Assembly: GCA_949752735.1 (NCBI GenBank)
Contig: OX457039.1
Location: 27,334,420 to 27,398,419, forward strand
Source of the DNA: Lumbricus terrestris
Lineage: Eukaryota; Annelida; Clitellata; Crassiclitellata; Lumbricidae
Reading direction: 5' to 3'
Length of the DNA: 64,000 nt
Of this stretch, positions 21,563 to 35,368 are shown one piece after another. The notes beneath the pieces are model-generated. The model saw only the letters and a program-made list of their open reading frames with translations. It did not search any database and had not been told where the DNA came from. Position 1 is the first letter of the stretch, and the number at the start of each line of letters is the position of its first letter. The translations under genes and the position numbers were made by a program.

Positions 21563-24500
21563 TTACAGCCGGCTGAATGGTTGCTGCTGTTGCTGTTGCC
21601 TGGCAACCGAATGATGATAAGATTGGCTGCTTTCACCTTTTGCCAGTGGCAGCTGGGAGACTCTCAGTTGGCCAGAGCTGACCATAGGTTGGAATGGAAG
21701 GGCAATGGGCAGCAGACCACCACTACCACCACCTCCGTCAACCAAGTGTGGTGAAGCAAACTGGTAGACTGGTGGCCAGCTGCTGGCCGCCATTGGCTGG
21801 AATGGTGCAGAGGATGGCCAACTAGAGGACACGAGAGGTTGGAAGGGTTGTGTTGTAACACATCGTGGATTACAGGTCTCTCTGGATAGCTTTTCCACTG
21901 GCAGAAACACAGCAGGTTGACTTGAAATGACTGATGTTCCAGTAGTATCACTGTGACCTAAAACACAAGAGTTTACAGAAAGTAAATAAAGATATCAGGA
22001 ATACTGTTGAATAAAATTCAAATGGCAGAAAAGAATAAACTCACATACCAGTTTCTGAGACTGATTCTCCTAAATTTCATAAACCACACAGCTCTGATTA
22101 TATGTGATTCAAGAGAAATGCAAAACTTTTTGAATCACTCTAAGTTAGCCTTGAGACCTTAGCAGACAATAATTTGTAACCTCTTAAAAGCCAAGATTTT
22201 TTATGCTCAGTAAGGCAGAATACTATCATCCACGATATTGAAAAAGGGTTAACTCTTGTACTGAAAAATTTCTGCTTTGCTGTTCTATTTCGTCTTTTTA
22301 TCCTCTAGCGAGCTATGTTTCATTCTCTCAAGCTGTACTGCAATCTCATTGATAAACTTATTCAATTCAATTAGATCTCCTCTTCTGTCCCTTCTGGTCA
22401 CCATCTGTTCGTTAACATGAACTTTTAGAATCTTCTTTAGCATCATCAGACTACAACTTAAATGAACTTTCACTTGGGACAATAAAGAAGAAAAGATGGC
22501 TGAACTATATCTGACCACGTATAGGATTCGTAACTGTAAGAAAATTAACCATATATAAATGCCAGCACATCACATGCAAACAATCAATGCAACAGAATCC
22601 CAGTACTAAATTCATTTAAATATGTCTGGACTTGGCTCAGCTAAAGTCTGGTCTGGGAATTTCAATGCAGGGTAATCAAGAAATGAATCCAACAAGTCCA
22701 AAACATAAACTTACTTGCTGCATTCAAGTGCTCCTCTGGTCTCCTAAATAAAGCCATCTTGTTGACACAGTATTCAAGGTCCTTAGGAAGCTGGCCAAGC
22801 AAACCTCTTCGGATCTCCTCGGCCATCTTGTGCTTCATTTCCACAAAGCCTTGCTCACTGTACAAAGCAGCGTTTGGAGTGCAGAGCAAATTCGGACAAT
22901 CCCTTAAAGGACCTGCAGCATGTCAACACACAAAGACAGATCACTCCTCAGTTAACTCAAATATAAATATACGCAAAATGTTGCATAGATCACTCAGTGA
23001 GTGGTCTAATATTGTTCTGCAGTTAATTACAGCATACTTGTCTATACATTACGACACACACACACACACTTGTACATTTACAAATGAGAACAACCTTTGC
23101 AAAGTTTTAAATGACTCGATTTAACGCATGCAATACAAACATGATGTACGGTTCATGTTGTGCTCACTAATCAGGAAATAAAAAGGCACAAACTTTGAGA
23201 ACTTCTCTGCCAAGTTAAATACTTTATCAACGTGTGCATCACTTGTTTATACAATAAAAATTTACTTTCAGCTACATCAGTCACCTCTAATGCACCTTAA
23301 TACGCATGCAGAGAGATGCGTTCAAAATGAACCAACATTGGGGTTTGTCCCAAAAGCAATACGAAAATCTGACAGTGATTCTGAATTTCTGTGACTGCTA
23401 TAGCTTACTATTTTGCATGTCGAATGGTTCCATCTCGTGTACATCAAGTGCTGCTCCTCGAATGGCGCCAGACTTGAGTGCGCTGGCTAAAGCCTTCTCA
23501 CAAATGAGATTTCCGTTAGCAGTGTTGACTAGATATGCCCCTAACACACCAACACAACATTATAAATCACAATCTGAAATCATCACATAAATCAATAATC
23601 TTATTGCTACCTTACTCTGTGGCATTCACAAAATGAGACAGTCAACAACATTAACGTAGACTAGGTCATCTAAATTTGTACGACCATGTATTTAATAGGT
23701 TAGCCAGTACAACAGGAAAGCTGCACCTCACTTGCAGCACTTACGAGCTTGATCACGACCAATGATACAACACTGACATATGGCAACTCTGATTTTTTGT
23801 ACAGTCAGATATCTAGTACTGCAGAAAAATCATCTGGAGGAGAAAACCAAAGGCACCATTCCAGAATTAAGAGCTCAAGGAAGACCTCAAAGACATGAAC
23901 CGATTTATCATTTAATCAGTTAACGAGGGAAATGTAAGACAATTAAAATTACGTGCTCCAATTGTCTCTGAATAGTGATGCTGTATAGTAAAGAAAGTGT
24001 GACGTCAACTAATTTCTGATCTGAAAAATTTGTAAGATCTAACTTATTTCTGCCCTATAACCTTAACTTATTTCTGCCCTATAACCTTACCCAGAGATTC
24101 ATGGCTGAGAACTATTGTGTCAGCGACAATATACATAACCGAATTATGCACATAAGCAAAATGAACGTACTCAGAGTACTTACTCTTCCACTGAAATATC
24201 CTATATAAAAACAGTACTGCCCAGTTTCTATGCAGTATGCACACTAGTCATTTATGCACATGCACATTACATGTTTAAGGGGCATCAGATGTGTAAAGTT
24301 TGGAACTAATTGGACCACATCCACCAAAAAACATATCTGGCGAGGACCAGAACAAGAGCTAAAAATATCTGGCATGCTGCAAGGGATATAAGGCACTATA
24401 TAAATATCAAATTACACATCTTGTGCATCTTCTGGTTTCAGTTAACAGAAGTAAACCATTGAAGCCTCAAACGGAGTTAAAAAGAGATGAAGAATCCCCT

Positions 24501-35368: not shown

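Follow-up and report, generated by a model that had tools for sequence, protein, structure and literature searches.

CtBP is usually seen as a corepressor that reaches DNA through partner factors, and it has long been asked how much its dehydrogenase site counts. A stretch of 64,000 nucleotides from Lumbricus terrestris (contig OX457039.1; the whole stretch is called the window below) raises a different question: can a CtBP carry a DNA-binding module of its own? A first-pass annotation, made from the letters alone, had described here a ten-exon frame in which a complete C2CH THAP finger is followed by a CtBP-type dehydrogenase fold. Then, is this a single coding unit, where does the fusion stand among animals, and what has become of the enzyme to which the finger is attached?

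Results

Gene structure of the THAP-CtBP locus

The proposed frame was confirmed. It runs on the minus strand from 35368 to 21563 through ten exons and stays open for 636 codons, with the stop codon ending at 21563; all nine introns are bounded by GT...AG and the splice phases are consistent (Table 1). Along the 636-aa product, a THAP finger comes first, then a linker and the CtBP dehydrogenase, and last a tail of unusual sequence. The finger is complete as had been described, with the C2CH ligands C5, C10, C58 and H61 as well as P29, W39, F62 and P73, all of which we take to be invariant THAP positions, and Pfam THAP (PF05485) scored 34.3 bits against a cut-off of 23.9. The dehydrogenase assignment was borne out by 2-Hacid_dh_C at 159.3 bits (cut-off 25.1), 2-Hacid_dh at 57.2 and a weak NAD_binding_2 at 23.8. 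No transposase domain was detected in the gene, for which Pfam returned THAP and dehydrogenase-type or NAD-binding domains only. Among solved structures, the THAP part matched best the THAP domain of C. elegans CTBP-1 (2JM3, 152.5 bits, E 1e-43) and the dehydrogenase part human CtBP1 (8ARI, 403.1 bits). A tblastn search with five CtBP proteins recovered the exons of the model, and matches elsewhere all had E values of at least 0.3. By architecture, the gene is a THAP-containing CtBP of the CTBP-1 group.

Table 1. Exons of the THAP-CtBP gene and the neighbouring BUB3 gene, in window coordinates
Feature	Position	Strand	Support
Exon 1: start codon and first THAP half (C5, C10, P29, W39), aa 1-53	35210..35368	-	2JM3 match; conserved in P0001
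Exon 2: second THAP half (C58, H61, F62, P73) and basic/proline linker, aa 54-144	32702..32975	-	
Exon 3: dehydrogenase start, PxDLS-cleft residue A52, aa 145-203	32210..32385	-	
Exon 4: dehydrogenase	29649..29793	-	gene model
Exon 5: dehydrogenase to first part of GxGxxG	26395..26601	-	gene model
Exon 6: remainder of NAD-binding GxGxxG and D204 equivalent	25318..25416	-	
Exon 7: dehydrogenase; donor inside 29-bp minisatellite	24847..24972	-	
Exon 8: N at catalytic R266, E295 retained	23409..23540	-	
Exon 9: N at catalytic H315, L at W318	22715..22912	-	
Exon 10: tail and stop codon	21563..21957	-	match to P0001 residues 504-611, E 9.8e-9
BUB3 gene, about 4 kb upstream of THAP-CtBP, same strand	39367..44263	-	sequence search

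By eye, the linker in exon 2 is similar to those of the annelid-like proteins P0112 and P0084. The tail in exon 10, also inspected by eye, has no PELNG-type block, and the usual features of CtBP tails, a central block and a conserved end, have no counterpart in it. In the available portions of a CtBP survey, the PELNG-type block is part of the CtBP C-terminal domain and is missing from flatworms and nematodes as well (PMC9907507).

The 29-bp minisatellite (24492-24875, 13.2 copies, 98% matches) spans the exon 7/intron 7 border, and most of its units repeat the end of exon 7 together with a GTGATT-like donor. Since the exon 7 frame meets a stop inside the array, we read the first donor as the one that serves the CtBP frame. 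Intron 3 holds four copies of a 172-bp tandem repeat (30172-30867, 91% matches). A 194-aa open reading frame in intron 1 (34300-34881, minus strand) has no Pfam hit; it is presumably similar to the last part of LINE-type reverse transcriptase proteins. A 437-aa uninterrupted frame at 53373-54683 (minus strand), rich in charged residues and without a Pfam match, resembles a large exon belonging to some other gene. Among the other open reading frames of the window, the seven submitted to Pfam gave no match.

A relative with the same fusion

The best database match, P0001, is one continuous protein of 623 aa and is identical to the window product at 409 of 615 positions. The longest contig of the P0001 source measures 2324 bases as compared with 14 kb over which the window gene is spread, and because of this P0001 probably represents a transcript. 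The alignment was ungapped within 8 residues on either side at eight of the nine window junctions. At junction 2/3 a gap lies alongside and 7 of 16 residues are identical; at junction 9/10 the count is 2 of 16. P0001 and the window share the residues N-E-N at the catalytic triad positions. The match speaks for a fused THAP-CtBP message in a relative, as evidence from that relative and not from L. terrestris itself. In the AlphaFold model of P0001 the mean pLDDT is 67.7, with the core mostly above 80 and the tail below 40, or below 50 when taken as residues 499-623. The predicted fold aligns with human CtBP1 and CtBP2 at TMt values of 0.89-0.91.

These data bear on a rival explanation, that the fused model is an artefact of a THAP gene adjoining a decaying CtBP pseudogene to which it was never joined. 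Altered catalytic residues and a very long dehydrogenase branch, described below, are what such a pseudogene might display. The ten-exon frame, however, is open with all splice sites present, the NAD motif is retained, and P0001 shares both the fusion and the N-E-N residues and has a tail that matches. The pseudogene reading was rejected on the intact frame and the P0001 alignment, and we regard an artefact as very improbable.

Loss of catalytic residues

What kind of CtBP is joined to the finger? We take R266, E295 and H315 (human CtBP1 numbering) to be the catalytic positions. Both the window product and P0001 have Asn at R266 and at H315 and retain E295; both also have Lys at R97 and Leu or Val at 318. 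The GxGxxG motif, D204, C237 and N240 are retained in the window product. As controls we used 117 additional CtBP rows from the best 120 of 4843, including three partial-THAP rows (P0084, P0087 and P0112). REH was found in 116 of these 117, and the remaining row was not aligned there. Position 318 is occupied by Phe in 102 and by Trp in 14 of the same 117 rows (best 120 of 4843); given that Phe is common at this position, only the change to Leu or Val is unusual. In the PxDLS cleft, whose positions we take to be A52, V66, Y76 and H77, the window product retains A52 and V66 and carries Y76F and H77Q, so partner binding may be shifted too. The full dehydrogenase fold noted in the first-pass annotation stands, but its catalytic N-E-N had gone unremarked. 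Judged by its residues, the window protein would be a CtBP-fold paralogue and not an enzyme-competent CtBP, its activity presumably lost.

Is the THAP finger the cause? Among the 60 THAP matches described below, all three catalytic sites could be aligned in 32, and REH is retained in 10 of the 32. The ten comprise the annelid, hemichordate, crinoid, sea star and amphioxus proteins (5 of 5) and 5 of the 24 named nematodes. Since some THAP-CtBPs retain REH, the THAP finger by itself is not the cause of the catalytic loss. The losses vary by line (SEN, HVH, DNQ, RSR, NEN and others), with the most decayed flatworm rows aligning unreliably.

The two domains were then compared for identity in 15 hand-chosen pairs. 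The window and P0001 are identical at 86/87 positions in the THAP domain and at 244/331 in the dehydrogenase. The corresponding values are 82/87 and 187/330 for Ascaris/Strongyloides, and 80/87 and 75/269 for S. mansoni/Calicophoron. Two ambulacrarian pairs gave 75/87 and 295/329 (Anneissia/Acanthaster) and 78/87 and 295/337 (Glandiceps/Acanthaster). The domain identities diverge in the lines with an altered catalytic site, and are nearly equal in the two ambulacrarian pairs.

Three CtBP genes in one genome

The genome to which the window belongs comprises 331 contigs and 1.056 Gb, with the window at C5:27334420-27398419. It gave 23 matches when searched with Lingula CtBP. Seven exon matches with 76-87% identity to the query lie at C4:38745602-38755016, seven with 65-82% identity at C2:50240820-50251054, and seven with 38-66% identity in the window gene. 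A match on C6 at 34% identity is probably another dehydrogenase. A short CtBP-like match at C5:36696558-36696710 (minus strand; 47% to Lingula residues 251-301, E 3.2e-4) lies about 9 Mb from the window gene.

The C4 and C2 copies read NT(S/A)RGG, HESEPF and CTPHSAF and so have R, E and H intact. By eye, six internal exon borders are common to the C4, C2 and window copies. Neither THAP nor BUB3 was found upstream of the C4 and C2 copies at E<=1 within 29.6-29.8 kb of each, by a search that finds both in the window. Two THAP-less proteins from short contigs are close relatives of these copies: P0165 is 99.7% identical to the C4 copy over 344 residues and P0092 98.8% identical to the C2 copy over 343 residues. 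At first the window gene was taken to be the sole CtBP of the species, a view dropped in light of these two further genes. The genome thus holds at least three CtBP genes, one THAP-bearing and two ordinary as judged by their intact REH and the upstream check of about 29.6 kb. New here is the division within one genome between a THAP copy that lacks the catalytic R and H and a pair of ordinary copies. A survey of CtBP evolution describes, in the portions available, a single CtBP gene across Protostomia (PMC9907507), against which a three-gene genome would be an exception and the duplication unusual.

In dehydrogenase trees of 42 and 35 hand-chosen rows, the window copy and P0001 were joined with full support (100/100) on a common stem of about 3 or about 6 changes per site. 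With a stem of this length, the dehydrogenase tree gives neither the placement of the window copy nor the time of its split.

Distribution of the fusion among animals

The first 144 residues of the window product were used as a query against proteins of 350-1113 aa sharing exact words with it, and 60 of 400 candidates matched at E <=0.001. Pfam THAP was present in 55 of the 60 and THAP together with a dehydrogenase domain in 37; the 18 with THAP alone (no dehydrogenase Pfam) are all flatworm proteins. By name or assignment, the matches consist of 28 flatworm, 24 nematode and 2 nematode-like proteins, P0001, and one each from Lamellibrachia (annelid), Glandiceps (hemichordate), Anneissia (crinoid), Acanthaster (sea star) and an amphioxus. 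In the amphioxus model the first cysteine segment is missing, and a Macrostomum model starts behind that segment. P0084, P0087 and P0112 start within the second THAP half or just after it and continue into an ordinary dehydrogenase. Vertebrates, arthropods and molluscs are absent from the 60 proteins found in this range of lengths and shared words, which is suggestive only.

It had been supposed that the fusion was familiar only from nematode CTBP-1, which does not hold in view of the flatworm, annelid, hemichordate, crinoid, sea star and amphioxus proteins. The search of proteomes for THAP and CtBP in one protein, which the first-pass annotation had advised, found it in echinoderms, a hemichordate, an annelid, flatworms and nematodes. 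THAP-containing CtBPs were reportedly defined by Nicholas et al. in 2008. In the literature searched, which was not exhaustive, we found no description of the fusion outside nematodes, and the 2008 defining paper may contain one. The sources, as far as their available portions go, state that C. elegans CTBP-1 has a DNA-binding THAP domain (PMC8816384, PMC3344825) and that this domain was used in a transposon analysis (PMC2203978). In the portions available of the 2023 survey of CtBP evolution, the one mention of THAP in the main text is within the title of a reference, and the alignment behind its tree excludes the N-terminal domain (PMC9907507). The available portions of a sea-cucumber THAP survey (PMC13228809) and of a survey of transposon-derived factors (PMC10027918) likewise name CtBP nowhere but in the title of the 2008 paper, which they cite. 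The fusion is known in nematodes; its breadth across animals and its age are newly shown here.

One fusion or several

A fusion of such breadth may be ancient or may have arisen more than once, and the first-pass annotation had left both readings standing. In BLASTP comparisons, seven THAP-CtBPs from other animal groups gave 146-168 bits with the window THAP, and P0001 gave 196. The score of the window THAP against eight THAP loci of its own genome, out of at least 150 matches, was at most 31.2 bits. A tree of the THAP domain, comprising 34 of the 60 matched rows and the window and with a bootstrap not fully settled, follows animal groups: the window and P0001 stand beside Lamellibrachia (95/87), the nematodes fall together (96/98) and so do the ambulacrarians (96/87), with the incomplete amphioxus row alone on a long branch. 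Inserts interrupt the Lamellibrachia and Anisakis THAP-CtBP models at the position of window intron 1; these seem to be retained introns, in which case the intron 1 site would be shared.

Could a CtBP gene of this lineage have captured its own THAP domain, for example from the many THAP transposons of the genome? Possible donors are at hand, as the genome has at least 150 THAP matches and all 150 of the scored matches listed exceed the Pfam cut-off, eight of them being those compared with the window THAP. Some sets with equal scores and equal 98- or 899-aa open frames are spread over different contigs, and such a distribution points to THAP-bearing transposons. An independent capture, however, would not lead one to expect 146-168 bits to the THAP-CtBPs of other groups as against 31.2 or less to the eight own-genome loci, nor a THAP tree that follows animal groups and an intron 1 site that is seemingly common, and we give it hardly any credence. 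Because the window THAP is far closer to the THAP-CtBPs of other groups than to the eight THAPs compared from its own genome, we favor one fusion in an early bilaterian, and common descent of the THAP-CtBP fusion across groups is strongly supported. The ancient alternative of the first-pass annotation is accordingly supported by the THAP scores, the tree and intron 1, and its second, independent fusion is very unlikely. Of the trees proposed for each domain, that of THAP follows animal groups and that of the dehydrogenase leaves the window copy unplaced.

The BUB3 neighborhood and the lineage of the window

In four of five named species picked by hand from among the matches to both CtBP and BUB3 (Glandiceps, Owenia, Mytilus californianus and Pomacea), BUB3 and CtBP are on contigs of identical size; in the fifth, Lingula, they are on two different draft scaffolds. 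The human genes CTBP2 and BUB3 are both at 10q26. The identical contig sizes suggest an old bilaterian linkage of BUB3 and CtBP, in which case the ancestral locus would be the one occupied by the THAP copy.

The BUB3 gene also informs on the lineage. In a tree of 106 rows, from which 15 of 120 listed proteins (>345 aa) were left out, the window BUB3 fell in a clade of six (100/98) outside a 25-row deuterostome clade (98/85). A deuterostome source, as the first-pass annotation had suspected, conflicts with this placement and with the grouping of the THAP domain with the annelid Lamellibrachia. BUB3 and THAP together place the window in a protostome lineage, probably a spiralian one. A nematode affinity, suspected from the 2JM3 match, was rejected on the THAP tree and on the absence of nematodes among the best 120 BUB3 matches.

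Internal start and THAP-less CtBP

Where do THAP-less CtBPs come from? In Glandiceps, CtBP X2 (436 aa) is an exact suffix of the THAP isoform X1 (530 aa) from residue 95 and starts with MDK...KRPR. A start of this type, defined by a loose pattern, is present in 71 of the 117 control CtBP rows (best 120 of 4843), and a hand count found a K(K/R)xR motif ahead of the core in 31 of the 46 control rows missing the pattern. Among THAP-less CtBPs, those of brachiopods and arthropods start with MDK..KRPR and those of lampreys with MDKHKVKRQR. A profile of such starts scored 21.6-23.2 bits on three ambulacrarian linkers; for amphioxus the value was 2.5, for Lamellibrachia 3.6, for C. remanei 0.1 and for Ascaris -0.2. 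By this profile the MDK..KRPR segment is not recognizable in the window linker, which scored 0.7 bits, a value that 228 of 2000 shuffles matched. With a broader profile, in which spiralian linkers were included, the window linker scored 5.5 bits, which 19 of 2000 shuffles matched and which is marginal. The proposal that the window linker retains the segment was not upheld; ambulacrarians show the internal start clearly, and in the window gene it is not demonstrable.

From these observations we lean, with some reserve, toward a reading in which the THAP-CtBP was the founding bilaterian CtBP, the THAP-less CtBP began as its internal-start isoform, and the catalytic site then decayed repeatedly. 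Once the two forms had split into separate genes, or the THAP form alone was left, the dehydrogenase would have been freed, and catalytic decay would have followed repeatedly, in the window clade, in flatworms and in several nematode lines.

Did the THAP and ordinary copies part early in Spiralia, so that the flatworm THAP-CtBPs and the window gene form one old paralogue group? In favor of such timing, Pfam recognizes no dehydrogenase in 19 of the 28 flatworm rows, and three flatworm pairs have 23-43% identity in the dehydrogenase as against 84-93% in THAP. Flatworm CtBPs with odd tails and alignable cores are described in the portions available of PMC9907507, and would be the products of separate genes. 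However, Lamellibrachia has THAP and an intact REH in a single protein, and P0112 and P0084 link the second THAP half to a core reading NTARGG and CTPHAA. We hold an early split in Spiralia to be doubtful. The six exon borders common to the three copies are compatible with either timing.

Discussion

What sequence of events would yield this set of genes? We consider it likely that ancestral THAP and THAP-less isoforms were split into separate genes, leaving a presumably DNA-bound and catalytically dead scaffold alongside a pair of normal corepressors. The CtBP gene of an early bilaterian would have had an N-terminal THAP finger and would probably also have given a THAP-less isoform by an internal start, as in Glandiceps. 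In the window lineage, two THAP-less copies would have continued as enzyme-like corepressors, and the copy adjoining BUB3 would have kept THAP and lost R266 and H315.

CtBP cores form NAD-bound dimers and tetramers. The window protein may likewise oligomerize through its NAD-bound core, and with one THAP finger per subunit an oligomer would present several DNA-binding modules. It would bind THAP sites directly, with no need of a partner factor bearing PxDLS, and may bring corepressors to these sites alone or mixed with ordinary CtBPs. A directly DNA-bound scaffold is favored since the window copy retains the core and the NAD motif required for assembly and is without two of the catalytic residues. 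DNA binding, repression, mixed oligomers, the loss of enzyme activity and the order and time of the duplications are all predicted here from sequence comparison.

The closest known system is Caenorhabditis CTBP-1, which has the same order of N-terminal THAP, linker and CtBP dehydrogenase. The THAP of C. remanei CTBP-1 is 72% identical to that of the window over 89 residues. Its catalytic positions are also altered, to H-V-H in place of the window's N-E-N, and the Caenorhabditis tail differs from that of the window. In the portions available of one study, CTBP-1 is the sole CtBP of the worm (PMC8816384), whereas the window gene stands beside two ordinary CtBPs. Glandiceps talaboti X1 shares the THAP-CtBP layout and 68 of 86 THAP residues with the window, but its REH is intact, and X1 and X2 are named as isoforms of one gene where the window genome has separate genes. 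The THAP-CtBPs of flatworms (Schistosoma, Taenia, Opisthorchis, Macrostomum and others) resemble the window protein in a strongly conserved THAP and a decayed dehydrogenase; in flukes and tapeworms the decay goes far beyond that of the window, and some are barely alignable. With human CtBP1 and CtBP2 and fly CtBP the window protein has in common the dehydrogenase core, GxGxxG and D204, and the fold is predicted for P0001. It differs from ordinary CtBP in the added THAP, in Asn at R266 and H315, in Lys at R97 and in Leu at 318 (Trp in human).

Two catalytically complete THAP-less CtBPs in the company of a THAP-bearing one that lacks R266 and H315 amount to a natural separation of the two functions. 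If the THAP-CtBP was indeed the founding form and its catalytic site decayed repeatedly, the dehydrogenase chemistry of CtBP would be dispensable for the DNA-tethered form. From the spread of THAP-CtBP, it would seem that flies and vertebrates have a reduced, partner-dependent CtBP and not the ancestral form.
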